Assembly: GCF_000818015.1 (NCBI RefSeq)
Contig: NZ_CP007511.1
Coordinates: forward strand, 1,164,001-1,228,000
DNA from: Stutzerimonas balearica DSM 6083
Lineage (GTDB): Bacteria > Pseudomonadota > Gammaproteobacteria > Pseudomonadales > Pseudomonadaceae
Length of the DNA stretch: 64,000 nt
Direction: 5' to 3'
The translations under genes were made by a program, and so were the position numbers. This document shows positions 17,615 to 43,501 of the stretch, piece after piece. Positions within the stretch are counted from its first letter, which is position 1. Every line of letters begins with the position of its first letter. The notes under the pieces were generated by a model, which saw only the letters and a program-made list of their open reading frames with translations, was not told the origin of the DNA and did not search any database.

Positions 17615-19396
<1,782 letters not shown>

Positions 19397-26469: not shown

Positions 26470-26641
26470 GCGGACCTGCTTGGCTGGCACCGCCCGGCCA
26501 GGCGGCGTTGCGCGGCATGCTAGCACCCGCTTCTTCGGCCTCTCAACCGCACCGCCGCTCGTCGGGCGCCGCGTCGGTCGGCGGTTCCGCTATCAAGTTC
26601 AGCGGCGGCAGGCCGCTAAGCCTGTTTGCCTGTACTGAAAA

Positions 26642-26674
26642 TTGTGTACAGTGATGGCCAAATGATGTGTACGA
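26642..26674. promoter_or_regulatory. Two GntR-box-like sites before the chemoreceptor gene
   Basis: TTGTGTACAG (26642-26651) matches TTGTATACAA at 8 of 10 positions; ATGTGTACGA (26665-26674) matches at 7. Both lie 25-57 bp upstream of the chemoreceptor start, in the divergent TetR/chemoreceptor gap. They suggest control by the GntR regulator at 43.5 kb. Confidence 0.45.
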
Positions 26675-26698
26675 AATTACCCGCACGAGGTTGCCTCC

Positions 26699-28630
26699 AT
26701 GCCGTTCTTCAAGCGCAGCATCCAGTGGCAGTTGATCCTCAGCATGGGCGCTGCCCTGCTGACGAGTCTGCTGATCGTCATTCTGGTCTACGCCTCTGCC
26801 GTCGAACGGCTGGCCGAGCGCTACCTGCTCGACGAGGCGTTGCCGGCCAACATCAACGCCATCGCGCATGACATCGAACGCACCCTGGCCGGCCCGATCA
26901 CCGCGACCGCGGCGATCGCCGGCAACACGCTGGTGCATGACTGGCTCGGCCAGGGCGAGGACCCGCAGCAGGCCGCCGCCATTGCCCGCTACCTGCACGG
27001 CGTCAAGACGCAGCAGAACGCACTGGCCACCTCCATCGCCGTGCTCGACAGCGGGCACTACTATTCCGACGCGGGGCTCAGCCGCACGCTGTCGCGCTCG
27101 GCAGCCGCCGACGCCTGGTTCTACAGCCTGGTCGACGGCAGTCAGGAGCGCCGGCTGGAGCTGGACATCGACAAGGCGACCCGCCAGCCGACGCTGTTCA
27201 TCAATCAGCGCATCAGCGCCGGCGGGCGTGTGCTCGGCGTCGCCGGGCTGGGCTACAGCCTGAGCAGCATGTCCGCGCTGATCGCCGACTTCCGCTTTGG
27301 CGAGCGCGGCGAGGTATACCTCGTCGGCAGTGACGGACAGGTCAAGATCCATCCGCAGAGCGAGCGCAACGGGCGTGCCGCGCTCACCGAGCTGACCGGC
27401 GCCGAGGCGGCCGGGCAACTGCAGTCCGGCAGCGGCGGGGTGGTGCGCTTCGAGCGCGACGGCGAGACCTTTCTGGCCATGGCCAAGCCGCTCGAAGGCC
27501 TCGGCTGGCAGCTGGTCGCCGAGGTGCCGGAGGCCGAGATCTTCGGCGAGGCACGGCGCACCCTGTGGACCACCAGCCTGATCGGCGCGGCCATTGGCCT
27601 GGCCTTTCTCGGCGTGATCGTGCTGCTGGCTCGCGGACTGGTACGGCCGATTCGGCAGGTCACGGCCGCGCTGGTCGAGATCGGCGGCGGTGGCGGTGAC
27701 CTGACCCGTCGGCTCGACGAGAGCCGGGCCGACGAGCTTGGCGACCTGGCGCGAGGGTTCAACCGCTTCATTGCCAGCCTGCGCGGGTTGATCGGCGACG
27801 TGCTGAAGACCGGCGAGCAGTTGCGCACGGCGGTCGGCCAGGTTGCGCGGGTGGTCGACGACACCGCGATGCGCGCCGGGCGACAGCACGAGATGACCGA
27901 CATGGTGGCTACCGCCGTGCACGAGATGGGCCTGACCGTGCAGGAGATCGCGCGCAATGCCAGCAACGCCGCGCAGGCGTCGCAGGGCGCGCGCAGCGAA
28001 GCGCTGGAGGCGCGCCAGGTGGTTGGCGAGTCCATTGCCCATATCGAGCGGATGTCCGGGCAGATCGGCCAGGCAGCCGGTTCGGTGACCGAGCTGGCGC
28101 AGCAGGTGGCTTCCATCGATCAGGTGCTGGCGGTGATTCGCAGCATTTCCGAGCAGACCAACCTGCTGGCGCTGAACGCGGCGATCGAAGCCGCCCGTGC
28201 CGGCGACATGGGCCGAGGGTTTGCCGTGGTCGCCGACGAGGTGCGGACCCTGGCCAGTCGCACCCAGGCCTCCACCGACGAGATCCAGCAGATGATCGCG
28301 CGGCTGAAGAGCGGTGCCGAGACCGCCGTCGGCGCCATGCACGCCGGCCAGGCGGCCACCGGCACCGGCGTGGCGGCCAGCCAGCGTACCGGGCAGTCGC
28401 TCGGCGCAATCACCGAGCAGGTCGAGTCGATCAGCGACATGAACACCCAAGTGGCTGCCGCGACCGAGGAGCAGAGCAGCGTGACCGAGGAGATCACCCG
28501 CAATGTGCAGGGTATCGCCGACCTGGCGCAGGCCACCGCGCGCGATGTTCAGGCCTGCCGCAGCGACTGTCAGGCGCTCTCGCAACTGGCCGTGGACCTG
28601 GGGCGGCAGATGGGAAGTTTCCGGTTGTAA
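26699..28630 (+). CDS. Methyl-accepting chemotaxis protein with dCache-type sensor
   Basis: The 643-residue protein has TM1 (about 10-32), a periplasmic domain of about 250 residues with the double-Cache look ([54 protein letters not shown]), TM2 (about 290-312), HAMP (about 313-365) and a signalling domain with the tip [20 protein letters not shown]. No C-terminal CheR/CheB pentapeptide is seen. The receptor lies beside purine genes and under GntR-box-like sites, so a purine ligand as for P. putida McpH is plausible but unproven. Confidence 0.92.
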
Positions 28631-29266
28631 GGGGCAGCGGCCGTGGCGCAGAACCTCCGTTTCTTGCGCGCCTGGTTTGGCCACTGCGGTTCGCGCAGCG
28701 TGATGGCGATTGGCGAGGCGCCTGCCGGCCTGGTGGAGCCTGGCGGGCGATGCGCGTTTTCCAATCGCCGACCCCATGTCGCTGGCTTCTTTCCGCGCGG
28801 GCTCCATTCGGCCTCCGAGGGGCCGTTGGCGTTGCCTGTCAGACCTTGCAAGGTGAGGTGAAGCCAAAACAGAGCGGAGCCTGGCGAAGTGCTCTGCTCG
28901 AACTTCTCGGTGACGCGGCCGCGCCCGCGCCAGAAGGCCGGGTGGTGCTGTGCACGGAAGACGTGAGGCGTGGAGGCCGAGCGAGTGACGATGGACGGCG
29001 CCGCGAGGCAAGGACGTCCCTTCGTGAAGGGGCCCCTGTGCAGCGCCGGAGCGGGCAATCGGGCCGTGAAATGGCGAGATCGTGCTGTCGGGCGTTTGCT
29101 CGTTTCGCGCCGGCCGGCGATCCGGAGCGATGCGCAAGTGGCTCGGCCGCAGAGCCGAGATCCGGGTTGGCAGCCCGCTCGGCACGCGTCCGATCCATCA
29201 GGCCGGCTGCGGCGCAACGCTCGCCGGTCCGCTACCCGTCTCGCTGCCACATCAGTCTTCAACCAC
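28631..29266. repeat. 636-bp gap with degenerate long intergenic repeat
   Basis: No gene is supported here. Part of it (about 28940-29080, with GGCGTGGAGGCCGAGCGAGTGACGA and CCTTCGTGAAGGGGCC) resembles the conserved middle of the long repeats at 40.4 and 55.7-56.7 kb, though much degenerated. Open frames on both strands are arginine/proline-rich noise. Confidence 0.5.
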
Positions 29267-29296
29267 AAAAAAGGGCGACCCGCGGGCCGCCCTTTT
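29267..29296 (-). terminator. Rho-independent terminator after the Tsx-like gene
   Basis: AAAAGGGCG and CGCCCTTTT form a stem around a GC-rich inner hairpin, followed on the minus strand by six Ts. It begins 16 bases after the stop codon of the porin gene. Confidence 0.88.
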
Positions 29297-29312
29297 CGGT
29301 GTTGCCGCAGAC

Positions 29313-30125
29313 TCAGAAATGCACCTTGACGATGGCGCTGAAGGTGTTCTGGTCGGTCTTGCCCACGAAGTTGCGGCTCACGAAGCCGCCATCCTCGATG
29401 CCGTACTTGTTGCTCCAGTAGTCGTACTCGATACCGACGTACAGCTGCTTCTCGCCCCAGTTCAGCGCCTTGCCCAGGTCGTACTTGATCTGCGGGGTGA
29501 AGTGGAAGTTGGCGTGGTATTCCTCGCCGCGCGAGTTGCGGTCGTTGTCCACCACCCAGTCGATGAAGCCGTCGATGAGGATGTCCGAGTTGCCCACCGG
29601 CAGGGTGTAGCCCCACACCGGGGTGATCTGCCAGACGCCATCGCCGGCGCGATCGCCGTCGGTGTTGCGGTTGTAGATGTTCAGCGAGAAGTAGTCGAAG
29701 CCCGGGATGTCGAGATCGAAGCCGGGGCCGATCAGGTAGCTCTCCACGTCGCCTTCGCCGAACTCGTAGGTCATGGCCAGCAAGACGTCCTTGACCGGAC
29801 CGACGCTCAGGTCGCGCTGGAAGATCTTGCCGAACGACAGGCGTGGGGAAAATTCGCCGTAGAAGCTGCTGTCGTCGTTGCCGTTGTCGTTGCCCTTGCC
29901 GTTGTAGTGGATCGAGTCGACGAAGAAGAAGGTGTCGCCGTACTTCCAGCCATTGACGTGTTCGAAGGTCACGGTCTGCTGGATCGGCGAGTCGATCTTG
30001 TAGTTGTGCCCGTACAGGTAGGTCAGGCTGTTGTTCTGCCAGTACAGCAGGCCTTCGGCCATCGCCGGCGCGGCCAGCGTGCTGCCCGCCAGGGCCAGAG
30101 CGAGGGGAGCGGTCTTCAGGTGCAT
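29313..30125 (-). CDS. Tsx-like nucleoside-specific channel porin
   Basis: The 270-residue protein has a signal peptide (about 1-22, ending PAMA) and a beta-barrel of the nucleoside-specific channel-forming (Tsx) family, opening GLLYWQNNSLTYLYGHNY and closing with VKVHF, the terminal phenylalanine typical of outer-membrane proteins. It should allow nucleosides or bases across the outer membrane, feeding the purine pathway encoded nearby. ATG at 30125 follows AGGAACC; the upstream 18 codons of open frame are not signal-like. A GntR-box palindrome lies 420 bp upstream. Confidence 0.88.
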   Translation of the reverse strand: MHLKTAPLALALAGSTLAAPAMAEGLLYWQNNSLTYLYGHNYKIDSPIQQTVTFEHVNGWKYGDTFFFVDSIHYNGKGNDNGNDDSSFYGEFSPRLSFGKIFQRDLSVGPVKDVLLAMTYEFGEGDVESYLIGPGFDLDIPGFDYFSLNIYNRNTDGDRAGDGVWQITPVWGYTLPVGNSDILIDGFIDWVVDNDRNSRGEEYHANFHFTPQIKYDLGKALNWGEKQLYVGIEYDYWSNKYGIEDGGFVSRNFVGKTDQNTFSAIVKVHF

Positions 30126-30560
30126 GGGGAGGTTCCTGTGGTTGCCAAGTGTCGTTTTTTGCCTCGCATTGTCTTGCAAGCGCAGCGAGGCGGGAAGCGT
30201 GCTGCGGCGTCAGCCCGGTGAACCTGCGTCGGTTCGGCTGAGGCATGGCGTCGCAGGCGACGGGCCGGTGGCGTCAGGCGGCTGAGGATTGTCCTGCAGC
30301 GCAGGCGGCGGACCGTGACGTCGGGCGGGCGCTGGACGGGCGAGCGAGGTTCGCGAAAGGGGCGACATGCGTCGGCTGGCAGGGATCTGCCAAGGGTGTG
30401 GAGTCATTGCTAAGCCTGCCAGTTGTTGTTGTGTGGTCGTGGGCTTGCGGGGCACGGCCACCGCTGCACGAGGCAGCGGCGCGGTGCCGATAACGTGCTG
30501 GACTATAGCAGGCTGTATTCAGCTATGCGAACAATTGAATTGCATTTTGTACACAATGAT
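30126..30560. other. Long leader of the Tsx-like gene with GntR-box palindrome
   Basis: This 435-base gap between the Tsx-like gene and the antiporter stop codon holds no supported gene. TTGTACACAA, a perfect palindrome of the GntR-box type, lies at 30547-30556. A minus-strand TATAGT (30508-30503) is a possible -10 box, which would give a leader near 370 bases. Several GC-rich hairpins are visible (for example around 30250 and 30460), but I recognise no known riboswitch. Confidence 0.45.
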
Positions 30561-32111
30561 TCAGGCGTCCGGCTGCAGTTCGCGCGCGACGTTCTCCGCC
30601 AGGCCCGTGCCGGCCTCGGTCATCGTCAGGTAGGTCCGATCTGCACCGGCAGCCTGGATGCGCTCGGCGATGTCTTCGTACATCGCATGCGAGACGATCA
30701 ACCCGGTGAAGCCGATGTCGCGCAGCTTGGTGGTCGAGATGATCTTTGCCTCGGCGTCGTTCATCGCCAGTACCACCGCCTTGACCTGGTTCATTTCCAG
30801 GGTCTGCCAGAACATCTGGTCCTCGGCGTCTGCGAAGAAGATATTGCGGCCTTCGGTGAGGTTGCGCTGGACCATCACCGGGTCCGAGTCGAGGCTGACC
30901 AGGCGGAAGCCCTTGCCTTGCAGGTGATCGTAGGCCGCGCGCCCGGTGCGCCCCATGCCCATCACCAGGATCTGCGCGGCGCCGAGCGACACCGGCTGCT
31001 CGTCCGGGTGGCGGATGTTGCGTTCCAGCGGGATCAGGCGGCGCGCCAGGCGATCGTAGAGCGGGTGCGAGAGGCGGTTGAGCTGCGCGGAAACGACGAA
31101 CGACAGCGCCACGGCGACTGCGAGCGGCGTCAGCCATTGCGGCAATACCACGCTGGCGACGATCAGGCCGAACTCGCTGTAGTTGGTCAGGCTCGTGGCG
31201 CTGAGAAAGGCGCTGCGCGCGCGCAGGCGGAAGCCCAGGAAGAGAAAGAAGAACAGCACGCCCTTGAGAGGCAGCAGCAGTGCGACGACGGCGGCGAAGA
31301 TCATCGCGTCGCTGTCGGGCAGGCCGCGGATGCCGATCTGCAGAAAGAAACCGACGAGAAAGACTTCCTTGATCGCCCACAGCGAGTTGGATAGCTCCGT
31401 GGCGCGCTTGTGCTTGGCCAGCATGGCGCCGAACGCCAGCGCACCGAGCTCGGAGCTCAGACCGACGCTTTCGAAGCCGACTCCGCCGACCACCAGCGCC
31501 AGCATCAGGCCGAGCAGCACCAGCAGCTCTTCGTGACCGGAATGGTCGAGCAGGCGGAACAGCAGCGGGCGCAGCAGGGGCAGCAGGAACACCAGCAGCG
31601 CCCAGGGCGAGGGGACCTGGCCGGCGGCCAGGCTCATGACCACCAGCGCGATGAGGTCCTGGATGATCAGCACGCCGATCGCGACCCGCCCGTGAAAGGC
31701 CTTCAGCTCCCGTTTGCCTTCCAGCACCTTGGCCGCCAGCACGGTGCTGGAAAACGACAGCGCGACGGCGATCAACAGGCTGTCGCGCCAGCTGGCATCG
31801 AAGATGAACACCACCGCCGGCAACACCAGCAGGCTGGAAATGGCGAAGTGCAGCAGGCTGCCGCCAATGACCTCGCGCCTGGCCAGGTTGCTGAGCTTGA
31901 GCTTGAGGCCGACGGTGAACAGCAACAGCAGCACGCCGAGGTGGGCCAGGTGCTGAAGGATCTCGCTGTCGTCCGGGCCGACGCCGATGCGCTCGCCGGC
32001 CGCGGCCAGGGCAAAGCCGGCGCCGAGGTAGCCGATCAGCGGCGGCAGGCCGATGGACCGGGCCACGAGGCCCAGAACGAACGCGAAGGCGATCCAGCTG
32101 GCTTCAATCAT
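30561..32111 (-). CDS. KefC-type cation:proton antiporter (CPA2) with TrkA-N domain
   Basis: The 516-residue protein has about 12 membrane helices (1-375) of the Na+/H+ exchanger superfamily and a C-terminal TrkA-N/RCK domain starting QILVMGMGRTGRAAYDHL, a Rossmann fold that binds NAD(H) or nucleotide. The RCK end has DAEAKIISTTKLRD. It is probably a potassium or sodium efflux antiporter in the inner membrane. Start ATG at 32111. It sits between the Tsx-like gene and the P-type ATPase on the same strand and has no obvious link to purines. Confidence 0.9.
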   Translation of the reverse strand: MIEASWIAFAFVLGLVARSIGLPPLIGYLGAGFALAAAGERIGVGPDDSEILQHLAHLGVLLLLFTVGLKLKLSNLARREVIGGSLLHFAISSLLVLPAVVFIFDASWRDSLLIAVALSFSSTVLAAKVLEGKRELKAFHGRVAIGVLIIQDLIALVVMSLAAGQVPSPWALLVFLLPLLRPLLFRLLDHSGHEELLVLLGLMLALVVGGVGFESVGLSSELGALAFGAMLAKHKRATELSNSLWAIKEVFLVGFFLQIGIRGLPDSDAMIFAAVVALLLPLKGVLFFFLFLGFRLRARSAFLSATSLTNYSEFGLIVASVVLPQWLTPLAVAVALSFVVSAQLNRLSHPLYDRLARRLIPLERNIRHPDEQPVSLGAAQILVMGMGRTGRAAYDHLQGKGFRLVSLDSDPVMVQRNLTEGRNIFFADAEDQMFWQTLEMNQVKAVVLAMNDAEAKIISTTKLRDIGFTGLIVSHAMYEDIAERIQAAGADRTYLTMTEAGTGLAENVARELQPDA

Positions 32112-32181
32112 CGAGGGGCTTCCGGGACGGGCGGGGCGCCGAATTGTAACGGCCGGACGCCGGTTGTCGAGTACGAGCGGC

Positions 32182-34935
32182 CTACCGGTCCGCCGCGTTC
32201 GGGCGCTGGCCGAGCCGACGGCCCAGCGACGTGCGGCGGATCACCAGTTTTTCCAGCTCGGCGACCAGCAGCACGAGCAACCCCGCGGCGAGCGCCTGCA
32301 GCCACTGCAGGAGCGTCAGGTCGACCGAACCGAACAGCGCCTGCATCGCTGGCGCGTGGGTGAACGCCAGCTGCAGCGGCAGGCACGCTGCGATCGACAG
32401 CAGCACGTAGGGGTTGGCGGTCAGCCCGCGGCGATTCAGCACCGAGGCAAAGATCGAGCGGCTGCTGACCAGGTAGAAGATCTCGGCCATCACCACGGCA
32501 TTGACCGCCAGGGTGCGTGCGGTCTGCACGTCGCCGCTGCGCTGCATTTCCCAGAGGAACACGCCCAGCGCGCCGATCATCATCAGCAACGAGACCATGA
32601 CCACGCGCCAGGCGAAGAAGCCGCTGAGCAAAGGCTCGCTCGGTGGCCGGGGCGGGCGCGTCATGATGCCCCGTTCGGCCGGCTCGAAGGCCAGCGCCAG
32701 CCCGAGCGTGCTGGAGGTGACCAGGTTGACCCACAGTACCTGTGCCGGGGTCATCGGCAGCGCCAGCTCGAAGAGGATCGCGGCGATCACCACCAGCGCC
32801 TCGCCGCCGTTGGTCGGCAGCGAGAACAGCACGAACTTCTTCAGGTTGTCGTACACCGCGCGGCCTTCGCGCACGGCTGCGGCGATGGTGGCGAAATTGT
32901 CATCGGTCAGCACCATGGCGGCGGCTTCCTTGGCCGCCTCGGTGCCCTTGAGGCCCATCGCCACGCCGACATCGGCGCGCTTGAGCGCCGGTGCATCGTT
33001 GACCCCGTCGCCGGTCATGGCGACCACTTCGCCGCTGGCCTGCAGGGCCTCGACCAGGCGCAGCTTGTGCTCGGGGCTGGCCCGGGCGAAGACGTCGACG
33101 TCGCGCACCACGCGACGCAGCTCGGCGTCCTCCATCAGCGCCACCTCGGCGCCGGTGATTGCCGCACTGCCATGGCCGATGTCCAGCTGCGCTCCGATCG
33201 CGCGGGCGGTTTCGGCGTGGTCGCCGGTGATCATCTTCACCTGGATGCCGGCGCGGTGGCATTCGTTGACGGCGGCAATGGCTTCCTCGCGCGGCGGGTC
33301 GATGATGCCGACCAGCGCCACGAGGCCGAAGCCGCCGTGCATATCGCTCGCCTGCAGATGCCCGCTTGCCGGTTCGGCACGCTTGCAGGCCAGGGCCAGC
33401 AGGCGCAGGCCGCGCGCGGCGATGTCGGTGGCCATGCGCCGCCAGTAGTCCGCGTCGAGCGGCTGCGCGCCGCTGTCACCGAGCTGGTGGTCGCACATCT
33501 CCATCAGCCGTTCCGGTGCGCCCTTGACGAACAGCCAGCAGGCGCCGTCGCTGTCGCGGTGCTGGCTGGCCATGAAGCGGTGCTGGGACTCGAAGGGAAT
33601 CGAGTCGAGGCGTGGCCAGGCGGCATCGGCAATGTGCTGGGTGAAGCCGACCTTGCCGCCGAGCACCAGCAGCGCGCCTTCGGTGGGGTCGCCGTCGACC
33701 TGCCAGTGGCCGTCGCGTTCGTGCAGCCGCGCATCGTTGCACAGCACGCCGATGCGAATCGCCAGCGCCAGGGACGGGTAGTGGTCCGGGTCGATGATGC
33801 GCCCGTCGAGGGTGCAGTCGCCAACCGGCGCGTAGCCCACGCCGCCGACCTCGAAGCGGTGCGCCGCGCAGACGACGCGTTGCACGGTCATCTCGTTGCG
33901 CGTCAGGGTGCCGGTCTTGTCCGAACAGATCACCGTGACCGAGCCGAGCGTCTCCACCGCCGGCAGGCGCCGGATGATGGCGTTGCGCTGGGCCATGCGC
34001 TGCACGCCGAGCGCCAGGGTAACGGTCATGATCGCCGGCAGGCCTTCGGGAATGGCGGCAGCCGCCAGGGCCACGACCATGAGAAACATGTCCTCGGCGC
34101 CGTGGCCGCGCCAGAGCGTGCCGAGGGCGAAGGTGAGGGCACAGACGGCGAGGATGACAAAGGCCAGCACGCGGCCGAAGCGGTCGACCTGGCGCAGCAG
34201 TGGCGTGGCCAGTTGGCGGATGTCGGTCAGCAGGCGATTGATCTGGCCGAGTTCGGTATCGCTGCCGGTGCCGACCACCAGGCCCGTCGCTTGGCCGTAC
34301 ACCACAAGGGTGCCGGAATAGGCCATGTCGTAGCGATCACCGAGCGGTGCGCTGGCGGCGACCGCCTCGATGTGTTTTTCCACCGGCAGCGATTCGCCGG
34401 TCAGCGCCGCCTCCTCGACACGCAGCTCCCTGACCGTGAGCAGGCGCAGGTCGGCCGGCACGCGGTCGCCGGAGGCCAGTAGCACACGGTCGCCGGGCAC
34501 CAGCTCGGCGGCGTCGATCTGTCGGCGGCTGCCGTCACGGATGACGGTGGCCTGGGTCGAGAGCATGCCGCGAATGGCATCCAGCGCCGCTTCGGCCTTG
34601 CCTTCCTGGATGAAGCCGATCACGGCATTGATCACCGCGGCCGCCAGCAGCACGGCGGCGTCCACCCAGTGCTCGAGCAGCGCGGTGATGACCGAGCTGG
34701 CGAGCATCACGTAGAGCAGGATGTTGTGGAACTGCGCGAGCAGGCGCATCAGCGGGCTGCGGGTCTTCGGCGGGGCGAGGCGGTTGGCGCCGTAGCGCTG
34801 CAGGCGTGCGCGCGCCTCGTTCTCGCTCAGGCCGCTTGGGCCGGTGTCCAGTCGCCGGGCGACTTCCTCGGTGGGCAGGCTGTGCCAATCGGTGCGTGGA
34901 GCGCGGCTTGCATCCTGGCTGGAGCGGTCTTTCAT
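32182..34935 (-). CDS. P2-type cation-transporting ATPase
   Basis: The 917-residue protein is a complete P-type ATPase of the P2 (SERCA/Na,K-like) group: N-terminal cation domain, actuator motif LTGESLPVEK, ion-site motif PEGLP (296-300), phosphorylated D339 in CSDKTGTLT, nucleotide-domain KGAPE, hinge MTGDGVNDAPALKRADVG, and C-terminal helices. It pumps a cation, perhaps calcium or another divalent or monovalent ion, at the cost of ATP. ATG at 34935. It lies 70 bp upstream of the KefC-type antiporter gene, which may form an ion homeostasis pair with it. Confidence 0.93.
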   Translation of the reverse strand: MKDRSSQDASRAPRTDWHSLPTEEVARRLDTGPSGLSENEARARLQRYGANRLAPPKTRSPLMRLLAQFHNILLYVMLASSVITALLEHWVDAAVLLAAAVINAVIGFIQEGKAEAALDAIRGMLSTQATVIRDGSRRQIDAAELVPGDRVLLASGDRVPADLRLLTVRELRVEEAALTGESLPVEKHIEAVAASAPLGDRYDMAYSGTLVVYGQATGLVVGTGSDTELGQINRLLTDIRQLATPLLRQVDRFGRVLAFVILAVCALTFALGTLWRGHGAEDMFLMVVALAAAAIPEGLPAIMTVTLALGVQRMAQRNAIIRRLPAVETLGSVTVICSDKTGTLTRNEMTVQRVVCAAHRFEVGGVGYAPVGDCTLDGRIIDPDHYPSLALAIRIGVLCNDARLHERDGHWQVDGDPTEGALLVLGGKVGFTQHIADAAWPRLDSIPFESQHRFMASQHRDSDGACWLFVKGAPERLMEMCDHQLGDSGAQPLDADYWRRMATDIAARGLRLLALACKRAEPASGHLQASDMHGGFGLVALVGIIDPPREEAIAAVNECHRAGIQVKMITGDHAETARAIGAQLDIGHGSAAITGAEVALMEDAELRRVVRDVDVFARASPEHKLRLVEALQASGEVVAMTGDGVNDAPALKRADVGVAMGLKGTEAAKEAAAMVLTDDNFATIAAAVREGRAVYDNLKKFVLFSLPTNGGEALVVIAAILFELALPMTPAQVLWVNLVTSSTLGLALAFEPAERGIMTRPPRPPSEPLLSGFFAWRVVMVSLLMMIGALGVFLWEMQRSGDVQTARTLAVNAVVMAEIFYLVSSRSIFASVLNRRGLTANPYVLLSIAACLPLQLAFTHAPAMQALFGSVDLTLLQWLQALAAGLLVLLVAELEKLVIRRTSLGRRLGQRPNAADR

Positions 34936-35092
34936 CGAGACACCCTGGGCGGCAACGGCGTGATCGCAGACGTCTCCAGCCTAGCCAAGCGTGACTGGCG
35001 ATGGCTGACTTCAGGCAAACCGGGGGCATTTTCGAGGCGGTGAATTTGTAACAGCCGACGAACGCGGCGGGGGGCGGGGTGCTGCGAGGGAG

Positions 35093-35115
35093 GCGCCGGG
35101 GCGTGACCCCGGCGC
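35093..35115 (-). terminator. Hairpin after puuD
   Basis: GCGCCGGGG CGTGA CCCCGGCGC is a perfect 9-bp stem with a 5-base loop, six bases after the puuD stop codon. It lacks a T run but is well placed to end the puuE-puuD operon. Confidence 0.65.
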
Positions 35116-35121
35116 TTGCGC

Positions 35122-36351: not shown

Positions 36352-36434
36352 GTTGATTACCTCTTGTACGGCGGCTGCAGCTGCCGTCCTTTCTTCTTAT
36401 GGGTATCGGTCCGAGTCACCGCGCGCGGTTGGGC

Positions 36435-36947
36435 TCAGCGCGAAACCTGTTGGGGGTCGAGGAGGAGTTGCTGATCCTCCGTGAAGAAGTACTCGTCGCA
36501 GTTGTTGCCAGAACCGCTGCGATCGACCACCAGGAATTCATCCCGCTTTTCGATCGTCAGCACCGGGTGGTGCCAGACGCCGCGGTGGTAATTGACGCCC
36601 TGCCTGCCGTTGCTGCGGAAGGCGCGGACGTGGCCCGGTACAGGTGCATCGCCAAGTGGCGCGACCACGACCAGAAAGGGGTGGCCGAGCAGCGGCACGA
36701 AGGCCTGGCTGCCCAGCGGATGACGTTCCAGCATGCGGATGACCAGCGGCATTTCCAGCGCTTCGGCACTGAAGATGCTGATGATCGCCCTGTCCTCGGG
36801 TTCGGCCGTCTCGACCGTGGCCAGCTTGTGATAGCGGCGGGTCGAGCCGTTGTTGATCATGAAGAACTCGCTGCCTTCGGTCTCGATGACGTCGCCGAAG
36901 GGGGCGAAGGCTTCCTTGGTCAGTGGCTCGATGGTCAGGGTGCGCAT
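36435..36947 (-). CDS. allA: Ureidoglycolate lyase AllA
   Basis: The 170-residue cupin-like protein starts RTLTIEPLTKEAFAPFGDVIE and has the conserved core RAFRSNGRQGVNYHRGVWHHPVL and EFLVVDR. It cleaves ureidoglycolate to glyoxylate and urea, linking allantoin breakdown to the gcl operon at 14-19 kb. It is 83 bp upstream of puuD. Between it and alc is a CCCTCACCC-type repeat. Confidence 0.95.
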   Translation of the reverse strand: MRTLTIEPLTKEAFAPFGDVIETEGSEFFMINNGSTRRYHKLATVETAEPEDRAIISIFSAEALEMPLVIRMLERHPLGSQAFVPLLGHPFLVVVAPLGDAPVPGHVRAFRSNGRQGVNYHRGVWHHPVLTIEKRDEFLVVDRSGSGNNCDEYFFTEDQQLLLDPQQVSR

Positions 36948-36997
36948 GGTTTGCTCGTTCAGTTAGTGGATGCTTTTCATTATTCGCCGGGGCCGCC

Positions 36998-37101
36998 CCC
37001 TCACCCCGGCCCTCTCCCCAAGCGGGAGAGGGGGCACAAGGTTGAGCCCTGCGCCGCGCCAGTTCCCTCTCCCCTCTGGGGAGAGGGTCAGGGTGAGGGG
37101 A
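36998..37101. repeat. CCCTCACCC/GGGTGAGGG inverted repeat
   Basis: CCCCTCACCCCGGCCCTCTCCCC (36998 on) and, inverted, GGGGAGAGGGTCAGGGTGAGGGG (ending near 37101) frame a smaller hairpin around GCGGGAGAGG. This repeat family is widespread in gammaproteobacterial intergenic regions. It separates alc from allA within the operon. Confidence 0.85.
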
Positions 37102-37115
37102 TCCGATCCCGCTCC

Positions 37116-38111
37116 TTACTTCGCCACCTTGCCGAACAAGCGCAGCCGGCTGACGCCGCCGTCCGGGAAGATGTTCAGGCGCACGTGGGTCACCGGGCCG
37201 AGCTTGGCGATCTGCTCGACGAACTCGTGCTCGGCGTGCATGGAGAGCTTCTGGCTCGGCAGCAGTTCACGCCAGAACAGGCTCTGGGTCTCGATCTGGC
37301 TGTCGGTGCCGCCTTTGACGTAAGCCGCCTGGATCGAGCAGCTGTCCGGGTAGTTGCCCTTGAAGTGCAGGGTATCGACGACGATGCGCTCGATCTCGCC
37401 CGGGTGGCCGAGGGCGACGATCACCCAGTCATTGCCGGGGGTGCGACGGCGGGCGGTTTCCCAGCCGTCGCCCATGTTCTCGCCACGGTTGGGGTTGAGG
37501 ATGTTGCTCATGCGGCCGAAGTGCTCGTCGGAGCAGGCCAGCGCGCGGCCACCGTTGAGGGCGGCGGCGAGGTCGATCTGCTCGTTGTCGCCGATGCTGC
37601 TCCAGTCGCGGTACGGAATGCCGTGCACGCGCAGACGGGCGACGCCGCCGTCCGGGTAGATGTTGAAGCGCAGGTGGCTGACCGGCTTGTCGAAGGCGAT
37701 CTCGTGGTAGTGATGGCTGTTGCCCTTGAGCTCGACGGCCGGCAGGACTTCGGTCCAGACGGTGTCGTCGTTCGGATCGCCTTCAGCGACGAAGCAGGCT
37801 TCCAGCGAGGCCGACGGCGGGTAGTTGCCGGTGAAGTGGCTGGTGTCGATGTCCACGCCCTTGATCCAGCCCGGTACGCCGAGGCGGATCACCGCATGGT
37901 CGTAACCTTCGAAGCGCTTGCGGCGCGACTCCCAGCCGTCCATCCACTTGCCGTTGTCATCGAACACGCCCTCCTTCCATACGGCCGGCGTCGGCTGGAA
38001 CAGCCGGTTGACGTCGGCGAACCAGTCGTCAGTGACGGAAATGGCGCGGGTGCCCAGGCGGGCGTCGGCCAGGTTGACGTATTTCTCGAAGGGTACGGCG
38101 TAAGCTTTCAT
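37116..38111 (-). CDS. alc: Allantoicase
   Basis: The 331-residue protein contains two homologous allantoicase jelly-roll domains (about 20-170 and 190-325). Repeated motifs are visible: [11 protein letters not shown]...[27 protein letters not shown] in the first and [11 protein letters not shown]...[26 protein letters not shown] in the second. It hydrolyses allantoate to ureidoglycolate and urea. The gene follows uraD by 65 bp. The start [20 protein letters not shown] at 38111 is typical. Confidence 0.96.
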
Positions 38112-38176
38112 GGACTCGTCTGCCTTGGATGAGAAGCGGTTTCTGTCATTACTGCCTTTGTTGCGGTTGGTGCTCG

Positions 38177-38692
38177 TTACATCGCCTGCAGGCGGAACAG
38201 GGCGATCTTGTTGATTTCCGCCAACGCCCGGGTGAATTCCTGTTCGGGGCTGTTGTGGATGCGTTCTTCGAACGCGGCGAGGATCTGGTGCCGGTTGCTG
38301 CCCTTGACCGCCATGATGAAGGGGAAGCCGAACTTCGCCTTGTAGGCGTCATTCAGTTCGGTGAAGCGGGCGAACTCTTCTGGTGTGCATTCATGGATGC
38401 CGGCACCGGCCTGCTCGGAGGTGCTCGATGCGGTCAGCTCGCCGCGGATGGCGGCCTTGCCGGCGAGATCCGGGTGGGCGTTGACCAGCTTCAGCTGGGT
38501 GTCGTGGTCGGCGGCGAGCATCGCCTGGGACAGGCGGGTGTGCATCACCTCGACATAGTCCAGCGTCTCGTCGACGCCGGCGCCGTAGACCGTCTCGGCG
38601 ACCCAGGGCGAATGCTCGTAGACATCGGCGAAGGCGGCGACGAAGGCGTCGCGGTCAAGGGTCGAGGGCTTGATCGTCTTGAACGGGGTCAT
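38177..38692 (-). CDS. uraD: OHCU decarboxylase UraD
   Basis: The 171-residue protein has the family motif [11 protein letters not shown] with the catalytic histidine H73, and [10 protein letters not shown] followed by the C-terminal [10 protein letters not shown]. It converts 2-oxo-4-hydroxy-4-carboxy-5-ureidoimidazoline to S-allantoin. Its ATG shares one base with the puuE stop codon (TGATG), a sign of translational coupling. Confidence 0.96.
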
Positions 38693-39621
38693 CAGCTGCG
38701 CTCCGCGGTCATGGGGTGGGTGGCGTGCCAGTGGCGTGCGATGTCGACGCGGCGGGCGAACCAGACCTTTTCATGACCCTTCACGTAGTCGATGAAACGG
38801 GCCAGCGCGGCCATGCGCGCCGGGCGGCCGAGCAGCCGGCAGTGCATGCCGATCGAGAGCATCTTCGGCGCGCCTTCGCAGCCCTCGGCGTAGAGCACGT
38901 CGAAGGCGTCCTTCAGGTAGCTGTAGAAATCGTCGCCGGTGTTGAAGCCCTGCACCTGGGTGAAGCGCATGTCGTTGGTGTCCAGCGTGTAGGGGATCAC
39001 CAGGTGCGGCTTGACCGGCGCCGAGTCCGGGTCCCAGTAGGGCAGGTCGTCGTCATAGGTGTCGGAGTCGTAGAGGAAGCCGCCTTCCTCGCGCACCAGA
39101 CGCCGGGTGTTGGGGCTGGTGCGGCCGGTGTACCAGCCCAGCGGGCGCTCGCCGGTCAGCTCGGTGAGGATGCGGATGGCCTCGAGCATGTGCTCGCGCT
39201 CCTGGGCTTCGTCCATGTACTGGTAGTCGATCCAGCGATAACCGTGGCTGCAGATCTCGTGGCCGTCGGCAACCATCGCCTTGATGACCTCGGGGTGGCG
39301 CTGCGCGGCCATGGCCACGGCGAAGATCGTCAGCGGAATCTCGTGCTGCTTGAACAGCTTGAGCAGACGCCAGACGCCGGCGCGGCTGCCGTATTCGTAG
39401 AGCGATTCCATGCTCATGTGGCGCACGCCCTGCAGCGGTTGCGCGGAGACCATCTCCGACAGGAAGGCCTCGGATTCCTTGTCCCCGTGCAGCACACAGC
39501 GCTCGCCGCCTTCCTCGTAGTTGAGCACGAAGGACAGGGCGATACGGGCCTCGCCCGGCCACTGCGGGTGGGGCGGGTTGCTGGCGTAACCGATAAGGTC
39601 GCGTGGGTAGTCGGCGCTCAC
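38692..39621 (-). CDS. puuE: Allantoinase PuuE (polysaccharide deacetylase fold)
   Basis: The 309-residue protein is the metal-independent allantoinase PuuE, opening allantoin to allantoate. Typical motifs are RDLIGYASNPPHPQWPGEAR, LNYEEGGERCVLHGD, EICSHGYRWIDYQ and GWYTGRTSPNTRRL. The GTG start at 39621 has AGGAA eight bases upstream; an in-frame ATG at 39717 would lie upstream of the promoter described at 39672-39700 and is rejected. It heads the urate-to-glyoxylate operon and is divergent from hiuH. Confidence 0.95.
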   Translation of the reverse strand: MSADYPRDLIGYASNPPHPQWPGEARIALSFVLNYEEGGERCVLHGDKESEAFLSEMVSAQPLQGVRHMSMESLYEYGSRAGVWRLLKLFKQHEIPLTIFAVAMAAQRHPEVIKAMVADGHEICSHGYRWIDYQYMDEAQEREHMLEAIRILTELTGERPLGWYTGRTSPNTRRLVREEGGFLYDSDTYDDDLPYWDPDSAPVKPHLVIPYTLDTNDMRFTQVQGFNTGDDFYSYLKDAFDVLYAEGCEGAPKMLSIGMHCRLLGRPARMAALARFIDYVKGHEKVWFARRVDIARHWHATHPMTAERS

Positions 39622-39670
39622 GGCAGGGTTCCTATGTGGCGGGTCGCTTGGGTGCGACCGGATGGCTTGA

Positions 39671-39700
39671 TTGTATACAAAATGAAATGCGCTCTGTAAA
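39671..39700 (-). promoter_or_regulatory. puuE promoter with GntR-box over the -10
   Basis: Minus-strand TTTACA (39700-39695) and TATACA (39677-39672) are 17 bp apart. The perfect palindrome TTGTATACAA (39671-39680) covers the -10 box, so a bound repressor would block polymerase. The GTG start is about 50 bp downstream. Confidence 0.75.
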
Positions 39701-39828
39701 CCACTAAAGGGCTTCATTTCGTCTTTTAGCTACCGGCCCTGCCTCGCCTGCTTTTCCATCAAGCCCGTAAGGCGGGTGGTGTTCGCCTTGTAGTGAAGCA
39801 GGAAGCACGGCAGGCGTGGAAGTAATTT

Positions 39829-39885
39829 ATGTATACAAAAATATCGATTATTGTCTTGAGTATGGTCGGGCGCTTTGGCTATGCT
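39829..39885 (+). promoter_or_regulatory. hiuH promoter with GntR-box-like site
   Basis: ATGTATACAA (39829-39838, one mismatch from TTGTATACAA) lies 18 bp upstream of TTGAGT (39856-39861), which is 18 bp from TATGCT (39880-39885). The hiuH GTG is 30 bp further on. Confidence 0.6.
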
Positions 39886-39914
39886 CGGGCTATTACAAAC
39901 AAGCGGAGGTGCCC

Positions 39915-40268
39915 GTGGGACGTCTGACCACTCACGTACTCGATGCTGCTCACGGCTGTCCGGGCAGTGGTATCAAGGTGACGCTGTTTCGCGTCGAAGA
40001 TCAGCAGCTGACTGCCGTGGCGACGCGCGAGACCAACGCCGACGGCCGCTGCGACCAACCGCTGCTCGAGGGCGATGACTACCGCTCGGGCGTCTACCAG
40101 CTGCATTTCCAGGCGGGGGACTACTACCGCCGTCGCGGTGTGACACTCGGCGAGCCGGCGTTTCTCGATGAAGTGGTGCTCAGGTTCGGTATCGATGCCG
40201 GGCAGGATCATTACCATGTGCCGTTGCTGATTTCCCCCTATAGCTACTCGACCTATCGGGGCAGCTGA
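39915..40268 (+). CDS. uraH: 5-hydroxyisourate hydrolase (cytosolic)
   Basis: The 117-residue transthyretin-like enzyme has all signatures: GRLTTHVLDAAHGCPG with the active-site H7, the central arginine in RSGVYQLHF, DHYHVPLLISPYSY and the C-terminal YRGS. It hydrolyses 5-hydroxyisourate, the PuuD product, to OHCU for UraD. The GTG start has GGAGG five bases upstream; the open frame continues upstream through the promoter. It is divergent from puuE and has no signal peptide, unlike the homologue at 20509-20919. A terminator follows. Confidence 0.95.
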   Translation: MGRLTTHVLDAAHGCPGSGIKVTLFRVEDQQLTAVATRETNADGRCDQPLLEGDDYRSGVYQLHFQAGDYYRRRGVTLGEPAFLDEVVLRFGIDAGQDHYHVPLLISPYSYSTYRGS

Positions 40269-40305
40269 CCGGTTCCCTTCAGTGCAGACTCTCTGGAGTC
40301 CCTTT

Positions 40306-40328
40306 ACCCGCCTTATGGCGGGTTTTTT
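40306..40328 (+). terminator. Rho-independent terminator after hiuH
   Basis: ACCCGCC TTAT GGCGGGT followed by TTTTT is a perfect 7-bp stem with a T run, 37 bases after the stop codon. Confidence 0.92.
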
Positions 40329-40365
40329 ATGGGGAGTAATGTCGCCGGGAAAAACCAGGGGATGG

Positions 40366-41100
40366 AAAGCCGCGCAGCGTTTGGCTCCTGGGGCGGCGCG
40401 CACGCTTGTGTCTGGCAAGGCGCTTTCCTCGTCTCGGGCTACAGGTTGCGCCTCGCACGGCGCCTCACTTTTCTTTGCACGCGGATCGCCGCCCGGCGCA
40501 AAGAAAAGTAAGCAAAAGAAAGCGCGCCCCTTCATCCGGGTCCGGGAGCTACGCTCCCGGACTTCCCTCCTTCCGCCAGCACTCCGAGGACCGGCGTAAA
40601 GGGCCATCCCTGGCCCTTTATCGCGGGGACGCCTAGTTCTCTCGCGGCATCCATGCCGCTCGCTCCCCTGCGTGCTGGCCCCACTCGGCCGTCTGTAAGG
40701 GGAAGAGTGGTGTCGCCTGCTGGGCCGTGCATGAAAAAGCAAAGCGAAGCCAGCCGCTGCTCTTTCAGGCGACTCGGATCGGAACCCCCTTCAGGAGGCC
40801 GAACGCAGGCGTTGCGCAGGGGGACGCGAGGCATGGACGCCGAGCGAGTCACGAAGGGGCAGGGATGCCCCTTCGTGACGTGCCCCCGGAGCGGTGCCGG
40901 AGTGAGGGAAGTCTGGGCGCGCAGCGACCAGACCCGGATGTCGGGGTCGCCTTCTCTTTGGTTACTTTCTCTTGGCCAGACAAGAGAAAGTGACGCGCCG
41001 TGCAAGGCGCAACCTGTAGCTCGGGCCGAGGAAAGCGCCGTGCCGGACACAAACCTACACGTCACCGGTGGTGGAAAACGCTATGCAATTTTCCACCCTG
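40366..41100. repeat. Long structured intergenic repeat with 49-bp inverted ends
   Basis: No gene is supported between 40329 and 41123. Bases 40420-40468 (GCGCTTTCCTCG...GCGCCTCAC) recur inverted at 40990-41038 with 44 of 49 matches, framing a 619-bp element. Inside are hairpins, including CACGAAGGGGCA GGGA TGCCCCTTCGTG near 40850-40878. The interior matches the repeats at 55.7-56.7 kb. A REP-like hairpin GTGGAAAACGCTATGC..TTTTCCACC (about 41070-41098) follows. Confidence 0.8.
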
Positions 41101-41123
41101 CGGATCTCTTCGGCACCCGCCCC

Positions 41124-41750
41124 TCAGCGGCTGATCAATGAAGCCGCCCCCGCGCCGCCAAACAGCGCCGCGCTGGTGCGGTTGAACCACACGTGCCCGC
41201 GGCCGGTGCGCAGATAGCGCGCCGCCCCTTGCGCGCCCAGGCCATAGGCCAGCTTGCAGCAGAGGTCGAGCACCGCCCAGGTCAGGATCATCACCAGCAG
41301 CTGCGGCAGCAACGGCTGCCCGGCGCTGAGAAACTGCGGCAGGAAGGCGGCGAAGAAGAGGATGTCCTTCGGGTTGCTGCCGCCGAGAATGAACGCGCGG
41401 CCGAACAGCCGGCTGAAACGCGGAGCGAGGGCCGGGGGTTCGATTTCCCGCGCGGCCGGCGCCTGGCGGGCCTCCTGCCAGCTCTGCCAGGCCAGGTAGA
41501 ACAGGTACAGCGCACCGATCAGCTTGAGTGTGCTGAACAGCCTTTCCGAGGCCATCAGGATGGCGCCAAGGCCCAGCGCCGAGGCGCTGAGCAGGAGGAT
41601 CGAGGCCGTGACCCCGCCGAGGAACGCCGGCCATGAGCGGCGCACCCCGTAGTTCAGGCTGTTGCTGATCATCAACAGCGACAGCGGGCCGGGGATCAGG
41701 ATCACCACCAGCGCCGCACTCGCATACAACAACCAGGTTTCCAGACTCAT
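41124..41750 (-). CDS. LysE/RhtB-family exporter
   Basis: The 208-residue protein has six predicted membrane helices and the RhtB/LysE pattern: MSLETWLLYASAALVVILIPGPLSLLMI near the start and GGSNPKDILFFAAFLPQF in the middle. It probably exports amino acids or a related small metabolite; the substrate cannot be told. ATG at 41750 follows AGGAGGGTGTG. It is 64 bp after the NCS2 permease gene on the same strand, but a terminator lies between. Confidence 0.88.
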   Translation of the reverse strand: MSLETWLLYASAALVVILIPGPLSLLMISNSLNYGVRRSWPAFLGGVTASILLLSASALGLGAILMASERLFSTLKLIGALYLFYLAWQSWQEARQAPAAREIEPPALAPRFSRLFGRAFILGGSNPKDILFFAAFLPQFLSAGQPLLPQLLVMILTWAVLDLCCKLAYGLGAQGAARYLRTGRGHVWFNRTSAALFGGAGAASLISR

Positions 41751-41768
41751 CACACCCTCCTGACAAAT

Positions 41769-41797
41769 GAAAAAGCCCCGCCGCAATGCGACGGGGC
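41769..41797 (-). terminator. Rho-independent terminator after the NCS2 permease
   Basis: GCCCCG and CGGGGC pair around an 11-base inner segment (itself able to pair CCGC/GCGA loosely), followed on the minus strand by five Ts. It starts 18 bases after the permease stop. Confidence 0.8.
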
Positions 41798-41814
41798 GGC
41801 GATGCGCGCCTCGT

Positions 41815-43161
41815 TCAGAGGAACGCGAATTTGGCGATGAACACCACGCACAGCACGTACAGGCTCAGCGATACCTTGTCGCGCTGCCCGGTCAGCAGCT
41901 TCAGCGTGGCATAGGTGAGAAAGCCCAGGGCGATGCCGTTGGCGATGGAGAAGGTCAGCGGCATCATCACCACGGTGACGATCGCCGGGATGGTATCGGT
42001 ATGGTCCTTCCAGTCGATGTGGGCCATGCCGCTCATCATCAGCATGGCGACGTAGATCAGCGCGCCGGCGGTGGCGTACGCGGGGATCATGCCGGCCAGC
42101 GGGGCGAAGAACATCGCGGCGAGGAACAGCGCGCCGACGGTGATCGCGGTCAACCCGGTGCGGCCGCCGGCGGCGACGCCCGAGGCGCTTTCCACATAGC
42201 TGGTCACTGGCGGGCAACCGACGAAGGCGCCGACCACGCTGGAGGTGCTGTCGGCCTTCAGTGCCCGCGAGAGGTTCTGGATCCGGCCGTCCTCGTCTAC
42301 CAGGTTGGCCCGGTGGGCGACGCCCATCAGAGTGCCGGCGGTGTCGAACATGTTCACGAAGAGGAAGGCCAGGATCACGCTGATCATCGCCACGTCGAAG
42401 GCTCCGGCGATGTCCATGGCCAGCCAGGTCGGCGCCAGGCTCGGCGGCATCGACACCAGCCCGTTGTATTCGACCAGCCCCAGCGCCCAGCCGATGCCGG
42501 TGACGACCAGCATGGCCAGCAGGATCGCGCCGAACACGTTGCGGTGGCTGAGCACGGCGATCAGCAGGAAACAGATGCCGGCGAGCAGCGCAGAAGGTTC
42601 ACCGAAGGAGCCGAGCGTCAACAGGGTCGCCGGGCTGTCGACGACGATGCCGGCGGTCTTCAGGCCGATCAGCCCGAGAAACAGGCCGACCCCGGCGCCC
42701 ATGGCGAAGCGCAGGCTCATCGGGATGCTGTTGAGCAGCCATTCGCGGATCCGCGACAGGCTCATGAAGACGAACAGCACGCCGGAGATGAACACCGCAC
42801 CCAGCGCGATCTGCCAGCTGTAGCCCATCTCGCCGACTACGGTGTAAGTGAAGAAGGCATTCAGGCCCATGCCCGGCGCCAGCCCGACCGGCCAGTTGGC
42901 ATACAGCCCCATGAGAAAGCAGCCCAGCGCCGCGCCGATGCAGGTGGCGACAAAGGCGGCGCCATGATCGACGCCGGCATCGGCCATGATGTTCGGGTTG
43001 ACGAAGATGATGTAGGCCATGGTGACGAAGGTCGTCAGGCCGGCGAGCAGTTCGGTACGCACGCTGGTGCCGTGTTCGCTGAGCTTGAACAGGCGATCGA
43101 GCAGGCGCGGGGACGAGTGCGGCAGGGCAGCGCTCTGGTGCTGCGACTTGGTGCTTTGCAT
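41815..43161 (-). CDS. NCS2 purine permease, AzgA/AdeP-GhxP type
   Basis: The 448-residue protein has 12-14 membrane helices and the AzgA-branch motifs: TELLAGLTTFVTMAYIIFVNP, GLAPGMGLNAFFTYTVVG, the substrate-site LFVNMFDTAGTLMGVAHRA and the conserved PVTSYVESASGVAAGGRTGLT. Members import adenine, hypoxanthine or guanine with protons. It is divergent from the GntR gene, with a perfect TTGTATACAA 129 bp upstream of its start. Guanine or hypoxanthine uptake for guaD/xdh would fit; exact substrate unknown. Confidence 0.93.
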   Translation of the reverse strand: MQSTKSQHQSAALPHSSPRLLDRLFKLSEHGTSVRTELLAGLTTFVTMAYIIFVNPNIMADAGVDHGAAFVATCIGAALGCFLMGLYANWPVGLAPGMGLNAFFTYTVVGEMGYSWQIALGAVFISGVLFVFMSLSRIREWLLNSIPMSLRFAMGAGVGLFLGLIGLKTAGIVVDSPATLLTLGSFGEPSALLAGICFLLIAVLSHRNVFGAILLAMLVVTGIGWALGLVEYNGLVSMPPSLAPTWLAMDIAGAFDVAMISVILAFLFVNMFDTAGTLMGVAHRANLVDEDGRIQNLSRALKADSTSSVVGAFVGCPPVTSYVESASGVAAGGRTGLTAITVGALFLAAMFFAPLAGMIPAYATAGALIYVAMLMMSGMAHIDWKDHTDTIPAIVTVVMMPLTFSIANGIALGFLTYATLKLLTGQRDKVSLSLYVLCVVFIAKFAFL

Positions 43162-43289
43162 GGGTGTTCCTCATCGTTCTTGTTGTCGATCACCCGGAGC
43201 GGTGCTCCCGAGGGCTGGGTGACGTGCGCGCCCTTCGCTTCCTGGTTAGTTGACCAAGAGGTCAGAAAAGGCTCTCGGCGATTATGGAG

Positions 43290-43299
43290 TTGTATACAA
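43290..43299. promoter_or_regulatory. GntR-box palindrome between permease and gntR
   Basis: TTGTATACAA, a perfect 10-bp palindrome identical to the one on the puuE promoter. The divergent gap 43162-43501 holds no gene; it carries this site and a second one at 43390. Confidence 0.7.
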
Positions 43300-43389
43300 A
43301 AAATGCAAACAGATATCGGGCCATTGATCCTTTCGTTTGGCGTGAATAGCGCCATTCAAGGGCTGTGGAGGGTGAATGTGCATACGCGG

Positions 43390-43399
43390 TTGTGCACAA
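43390..43399. promoter_or_regulatory. Second GntR-box-like palindrome before gntR
   Basis: TTGTGCACAA, a perfect palindrome of the TTGTNNACAA type, exactly 100 bp from the first. It lies about 100 bp upstream of the gntR start and suggests autoregulation. Confidence 0.55.
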
Positions 43400-43501
43400 C
43401 AAAACAGAGGGTTGCGACAAAATTTCGCTTCGATCGGCTGCCGGTTCGTTCGCAGACACAGTAAAGTGATGACCTCTCGACCCCTCGGATGCGAGCCCTC
43501 G

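Follow-up and report, generated by a model that had tools for sequence, protein, structure and literature searches.

What holds together the purine genes that lie close to one another in the genome of Stutzerimonas balearica DSM 6083? In the 64,000 nucleotides analysed here (contig NZ_CP007511.1, positions 1,164,001 to 1,228,000; "the window", whose own numbering is used unless the genome is named), an interval of 16.8 kb holds genes for a McpH-like chemoreceptor, a Tsx-like channel, a urate oxidase-type PuuD, an allantoicase, UraD, PuuE, HiuH, a nucleobase permease and an FCD-type GntR regulator, followed by guanine deaminase (guaD), xdhC and xdhB. Six short palindromes accompany these genes, the pattern TTGTNNACAA being found without mismatch at 30547, 39671, 43290 and 43390 and with one mismatch each at 26642 (TTGTGTACAG) and 39829 (ATGTATACAA); all six, four perfect and two imperfect, stand where an earlier note on this DNA had placed them. 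Our analysis makes it highly probable that these palindromes, in the form TTGTRYACAA, are operators of the FCD-GntR protein encoded at 43502-44245, which would, through a repression relieved by urate, control purine chemotaxis, purine uptake and urate catabolism together. The features at the core of this argument are listed below, operators without strand.

38692..39621, minus strand: puuE, polysaccharide-deacetylase family allantoinase (Pfam match on 38692-39717; GTG start assigned by eye)
39671..39680: candidate operator TTGTATACAA before puuE (exact match; conserved in relatives)
39829..39838: candidate operator ATGTATACAA before hiuH, one mismatch (second site with at most one mismatch in 45/45 puuE-hiuH regions)
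39915..40268, plus strand: hiuH, HIUase/transthyretin family (Pfam match on 39816-40268)
41815..43161, minus strand: nucleobase permease, Xan_ur_permease (Pfam)
43281..43309, minus strand: promoter-like TTTGCA, 17 bp, CATAAT of the permease (9/12 matches; shuffle mean 0.2)
43290..43299: candidate operator TTGTATACAA before the permease, within the spacer of the promoter-like hexamer pair (exact in 47/47 loci)
43390..43399: candidate operator TTGTGCACAA before gntR, predicted autoregulation (exact site before gntR in 79/80 loci)
43502..44245, plus strand: FCD-family GntR regulator (Pfam GntR and FCD above cut-off; same gene order in relatives)

The regulator combines an N-terminal GntR winged helix with a C-terminal FCD domain, the hallmarks of the FCD subfamily of the GntR superfamily, with Pfam scores of 63.2 bits for GntR and 89.4 bits for FCD against cut-offs of 27 and 24.3 (scored on the longer frame 43376-44245). 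Its neighbourhood of puuE, hiuH, permease, guaD and xdh genes, in the window as in relatives, follows the order around UgmR in Pseudomonas aeruginosa, which we take in part from the accessible part of PMC12694930, and the protein is most likely the ortholog of P. aeruginosa UgmR (PA1520).

The evidence that carries the operator assignment comes from relatives of the regulator, of which at least 544 were confirmed and the best 80 loci, 1,556,731 bases in all, were used. Within the 400 bp upstream of a gene, counted in loci that contain the gene start and at least 300 bp before it, a perfect TTGTNNACAA is found for puuE in 45/45 loci, for hiuH in 45/45, for the permease in 47/47 and for gntR in 79/80, with all 80 gntR regions holding a site if one mismatch is allowed. 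This is the enrichment at purine gene promoters of related species by which the earlier note had proposed to judge the motif. Perfect sites are absent under the same conditions from the upstream regions of guaD (0/69), xdhC (0/68), xdhB (0/67) and puuD (0/44), so that the proposed regulon is supported for puuE, the permease and gntR and does not extend to guaD and the xdh genes. Near-matches with at most one mismatch precede xdhC in 12/68 loci (shuffle mean 3.1 of 67 distinct), but were rejected as operators: nine of the twelve read TTGTCCACCA and the rest TTGTGAACAC, GTGTTCACAA or TTGTGAGCAA, none of which combines an RY centre with symmetry. Altogether, 199 of the 229 perfect sites fall within the 58,566 bases that make up the 400-bp stretches upstream of puuE, hiuH, permease and gntR, while a backwards-control motif has seven sites in the whole 1.56 Mb. 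Divergent genes share part of these stretches, and whole intergenic regions were therefore counted as well: two sites with at most one mismatch are found in 45/45 puuE-hiuH regions (two exact in 31) and in 47/47 permease-gntR regions (two exact in 40), and the backwards motif has no exact match in either set. The 30 perfect sites outside the upstream stretches comprise 20 TTGTGCACAA, nine TTGTCGACAA and one TTGTGAACAA; the 11 of these TTGTGCACAA sites that were inspected all belong to a conserved leader that precedes a xanthine permease. As a separate observation, TTGTCGACAA recurs at similar positions (near 1233-2052) in nine fluorescent Pseudomonas loci (L054, L059, L065, L067, L068, L070, L071, L079 and L085).

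The sites nearest to puuE, hiuH, the permease and gntR have AT, GT or GC as their centre, and the informative form of the motif is TTGTRYACAA rather than TTGTNNACAA. Of 14 perfect sites in the S. balearica genome, six have an RY centre, and five of these precede purine genes: the four in the window, and a fifth outside it, about 70 bp before a permease that passes the pbuX xanthine-permease model's cut-off. The sixth (L005 3001-3010, genome position 1708425) lies between a MATE transporter gene and a PdxB-like dehydrogenase gene. The motif also travels with the regulator. Among 119 genomes of the family, with the regulator called at E 1e-60 or better, TTGTRTACAA has 679 matches on both strands against 108 for its control in the 52 genomes that bear the regulator, and 277 against 243 in the 67 that lack it; it exceeds its control in 51/52 and 35/67 genomes, respectively. 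Per megabase, the motif matches of the two groups differ with P 1.4e-11 (Mann-Whitney, relatedness ignored). As control matches per megabase differ as well, in the opposite direction (0.37 with the regulator, 0.94 without), base composition may account for part of this contrast.

At the core genes the arrangement of the sites suggests how such a repressor could work. One dimer of the FCD-GntR protein would occupy each palindrome, and the operators would act in pairs for puuE/hiuH and for permease/gntR, autoregulation included. At the permease the candidate operator lies between the -35-like and -10-like hexamers, so that binding should exclude RNA polymerase; among 24 distinct relatives the bases TTGC and CATAAT of these hexamers are conserved to at least 80%. 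Once purines are oxidised to urate, urate would free the repressor from its operators, and sensing, uptake and catabolism would rise together. The same protein would also repress the promoter of a former xanthine-permease/tsx operon, that of a second xanthine permease elsewhere in the genome and that of the McpH-type chemoreceptor. The chemoreceptor and tsx sites, which the earlier note had regarded as its weakest links, hold up, being conserved in many relatives. The features around the chemoreceptor are these.

26593..26619, plus strand: sigma-28 (FliA)-like promoter TCAAGTTC-N11-GCCGCTAA of the chemoreceptor (13/16 consensus positions)
26642..26651: candidate chemoreceptor operator TTGTGTACAG, one mismatch (conserved in relatives)
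26665..26674: second half-palindrome ATGTGTACGA 23 bp further along, weaker, with two mismatches (read by eye)
26699..28630, plus strand: chemoreceptor of the McpH type, its dCache_1 domain carrying the YRWFN purine motif (Pfam; motif; closest structure)

The best solved relative of the receptor's sensor domain is McpH (PDB 8bmv, E 2.2e-73), and from residue 121 the window receptor carries the purine motif Y-x7-R-x10-W-x26-F-x-N, a spacing that we derived from residue numbers in the accessible text of PMC11245519, where YRWFN is listed as a variant of the dCache_1PU purine motif. The pattern, with Y, R/K, W, F and N/D in register, is matched by 28/30 family orthologs and by 21/21 orthologs from genomes of the regulator loci. 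The receptor is found in 46 family genomes. In a first set of 30 of these receptors, 23 have a site in the 300 bp before the gene when one mismatch is allowed, 10 of these sites being exact, against 3 for the backwards control; among the other 16, two of which are partial and were set aside, none of the 14 usable ones has a site (backwards control 3). In the two partial cases (L167 of G103 and L168 of G035) the receptor match starts no earlier than residue 58 or 88; in L167 the DNA before the match looks transposase-like by eye. The genomes of 40 of the 80 regulator loci provided a further sample, 21 of them having the receptor (22 matches, one partial match dropped), and here a site precedes 18/21 receptors, 8 of the sites being exact, against 1 for the backwards control. 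Pooled after removal of four duplicates, 37/61 distinct receptor upstream regions contain a site with at most one mismatch, against a mean of 4.5 in 10 shuffles. All 23 site-bearing family genomes have the regulator, and all four usable receptors from regulator-free genomes lack the site. In a P. putida genome a perfect site stands 195 bp before the receptor gene, and GTNNAC pairs spaced by 12-13 or 21-25 bp recur in relatives.

A promoter of the flagellar type may precede the same gene. Scored against the FliA consensus TAAAGTTT-N11-GCCGATAA, as given in the accessible part of PMC7286023, promoter-like elements with at least 11/16 positions are found in 39/61 receptor regions, compared with a mean of 0.88 in 50 base shuffles. 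In 23/37 site-bearing regions the operator starts 19-49 bp after the -10 of such an element, by hand count; in the window the -10 lies at 26612-26619 and the operator at 26642-26651. A repressor bound there, at an operator starting about 20 bp downstream of the sigma-28-like -10, would interfere with promoter clearance or form a roadblock.

The second outer site lies before the gene of the Tsx-like channel, in a region that has evidently lost a gene.

29313..30125, minus strand: Tsx-like nucleoside channel (Pfam Channel_Tsx)
30403..30453, minus strand: start remnant of a lost permease gene of NCS2 (pbuX) type (51 bp at 86% to the S. kunmingensis permease start, L191)
30547..30556: candidate operator TTGTACACAA of the former xanthine-permease/tsx operon (TTGTGCACAA before the permease in relatives)

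In S. kunmingensis, by reading, the order is Na/H exchanger, TTGTGCACAA, permease, tsx and TetR, and the ortholog of this permease in L032 scores over the pbuX cut-off. The window aligns with S. kunmingensis on both flanks and over the 51-bp remnant, with 203 bp here in place of 1511 there. At E 1e-150 the S. balearica genome contains nothing that matches the L032 permease, while 42/56 genomes of the genus have a match, four of them only at 61-62% identity; a 45%-identical permease is retained elsewhere in the S. balearica genome, at a locus where both strands lack an exact site. To judge from these alignments, a xanthine-permease gene between operator and tsx was lost here, which makes the 420-bp gap between the site at 30547 and tsx, and with it window positions 30126-30560, a deletion scar. 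Where the permease is kept, so is the site: in 29/29 distinct same-genus loci, obtained from the best 30 of 46 matches, an exact TTGTGCACAA stands 141-145 bp before the orthologs of the lost permease (shuffle mean 2.1 of 27). For the second xanthine permease, sites with at most one mismatch precede the gene in 28/29 distinct loci, 12 of them exact, compared with 0 exact and 3 with at most one mismatch for the control. A riboswitch in the conserved permease/tsx leader was rejected as a candidate: four sources gave no match to Rfam at the gathering thresholds, and 261 bases of L036 gave none even with E values up to 1.

Several observations weigh against so wide a regulon, or against the motif itself. 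The chemoreceptor site in the window has one mismatch; the receptors of one genus (g9) lack a site in 11/11 cases, though the genomes have the regulator, and six further regulator-bearing genomes have no receptor site. Of 37 tsx-like genes, only nine have an exact site in the 700 bp directly before them (control 1 exact), a result that is to be expected if the permease usually stands between site and tsx, or elsewhere. At the permease/tsx loci the backwards control is frequent as well (4 exact and 17 with at most one mismatch of 29), though at other positions. The glyoxylate carboligase gene gcl, a reported UgmR target in P. aeruginosa, is present in the window (17624-19393, minus strand) with no site of at most one mismatch upstream of it. 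At puuE, where the site had been said to overlap the -10 box, an arrangement of TTTACA, 17 bp and TATACA is plausible by eye, but the promoter scan called no sigma-70 match at its threshold. Finally, the plain counts are unimpressive: the window has 10 matches with at most one mismatch against 6.12 expected (standard deviation 2.40), a number reached by 10 of 100 shuffles, and the 4.38-Mb genome has its 14 distinct perfect TTGTNNACAA sites against 22 for the backwards pattern. The genome-wide count of the unrefined pattern, which the earlier note had recommended, thus yields no enrichment and was dropped as evidence, but the sites do cluster: four of the 14 lie in the 16.8-kb interval where 0.054 are expected, with a binomial P of 2e-7 that is optimistic because the bounds of the interval were themselves drawn round the sites.

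A first alternative is a regulon confined to the core, in which UgmR controls puuE, hiuH, the permease and itself, and the sites at the chemoreceptor and at tsx either resemble operators by chance or belong to another regulator, such as a RutR-like TetR protein. The mismatch in the window's receptor site, the 24/61 distinct receptor regions without a site, all 11 of g9 among them, and the 9/37 count at tsx-like genes speak for it; the excess of receptor sites over shuffles, their restriction to genomes that have the regulator and the invariant operator at the permease/tsx loci speak against it, and on balance we consider it unlikely. The g9 receptors have a FliA-like promoter with a score of at least 11 in 10/11 cases and no operator, and the predicted control of the chemoreceptor by a UgmR-type repressor is lineage-dependent. 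A second alternative, that the sites are bound not by the neighbouring regulator but by a different FCD-GntR protein with the same half-site, has a concrete candidate. Among the eight non-RY sites of the genome, one TTGTCGACAA (L006 3001-3010, genome position 1830598) precedes another FCD-GntR gene, adjoining prpB, and the half-site TTGT/ACAA is therefore probably shared. However, a site with at most one mismatch precedes the neighbouring gntR in every locus, the purine-gene sites have RY and not CG centres, and UgmR is reported, in the accessible part of PMC12694930, to repress the same cluster, which leaves this alternative very improbable; the comparison suggests that FCD-GntR proteins with a common half-site may be distinguished by the central two bases. 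That the sites are chance palindromes in AT-rich intergenic DNA would suit the plain counts in window and genome, but is contradicted by positional conservation over 80 loci against a handful of backwards sites, none of them in the intergenic sets, and can be practically dismissed.

Urate-relieved repression by the FCD-GntR protein, reaching from catabolism to uptake and sensing, is thus the reading that we prefer, and two further regulatory inputs may be layered onto it. A urate repressor acting over a sigma-28 promoter would form an AND gate, in which the chemoreceptor is made only if flagella are being built and urate signals that purines are broken down. At the permease promoters, a RutR-like TetR protein would perhaps contribute a second input, of nucleobase type. 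For this combined scheme we see the chances as evenly balanced; if true, the gate would couple chemotaxis to catabolism and would explain the induction of mcpH transcripts by purines. The features behind the second input are the following.

25855..26526, minus strand: RutR-like TetR regulator, divergent from the chemoreceptor (profile matches)
43250..43265: RutR-type palindrome TTGACC-N4-GGTCAG, between the candidate UgmR operator and the permease start (conserved in relatives)

The TetR protein stays below the RutR equivalog cut-offs, with 172.9 of 368 bits for TIGR03613 and 151.7 of 230 for NF011584. With up to three mismatches, TTGACC-N4-GGTCAA is found upstream of the permease in 47/47 distinct regions (0 for the backwards form, shuffle mean 5.8), upstream of the second xanthine permease in 19/29 (2 and 2.4, respectively) and, as a weak signal, upstream of the chemoreceptor in 27/61 (9 and 7.0). 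By resemblance, the product of the RutR-like TetR gene is a candidate binder of this palindrome and may bind at 43250-43265. Elsewhere in the window, two RutR-like matches 33 bp apart at 8775-8823 recur letter-identical 4600 bp on (13375-13423), which hints at a repeated segment.

How does this predicted regulon compare with known systems? According to the accessible part of PMC12694930, UgmR of P. aeruginosa has binding sites before both the allantoin cluster and gcl, represses the two, and is released from this repression by urate and not by allantoin. Of the two effectors proposed for the S. balearica regulator, urate is therefore the one favoured by the UgmR report, and allantoin is not. 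The claim that the motif is the operator of an adjacent FCD-GntR repressor of purine catabolism is supported by conservation, by co-occurrence and by that report. As the regulator is most likely the known urate-relieved repressor, the core regulon is not new; the informative part is its predicted wider reach, which would link urate catabolism with a purine chemoreceptor, with the promoters of two xanthine-type permeases and with a Tsx-like channel. In the literature on the motif, UgmR, McpH regulation, chemoreceptor transcripts and chemoreceptor-GntR/FliA connections, as far as these sources were accessible, we recognised no report of UgmR controlling a chemoreceptor.

The S. balearica system thus resembles that of P. 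aeruginosa in the type of repressor, in the gene neighbourhood and in the allantoin cluster as a target (PMC12694930, accessible part), and differs from it in that the operator also stands before the purine chemoreceptor, the permease/tsx promoter and the second xanthine permease, while gcl has no recognisable site. With the prp-linked FCD-GntR operator it shares the TTGT/ACAA half-sites, but that operator has a CG centre in this genome and not an RY one. The chemoreceptor resembles McpH of P. putida in its sensor domain and in the five residues of the purine motif (PDB 8bmv; PMC11245519, accessible part). Transcripts of mcpH are raised by purines, one of the cases on record in P. putida in which chemoreceptor genes are induced by their own ligands, and the accessible part of that report (PMC6363813) names no regulator; in S. 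balearica, by contrast, the gene has before it a sigma-28-like promoter and a candidate operator of UgmR type, offering a candidate repressor and operator for such an induction.

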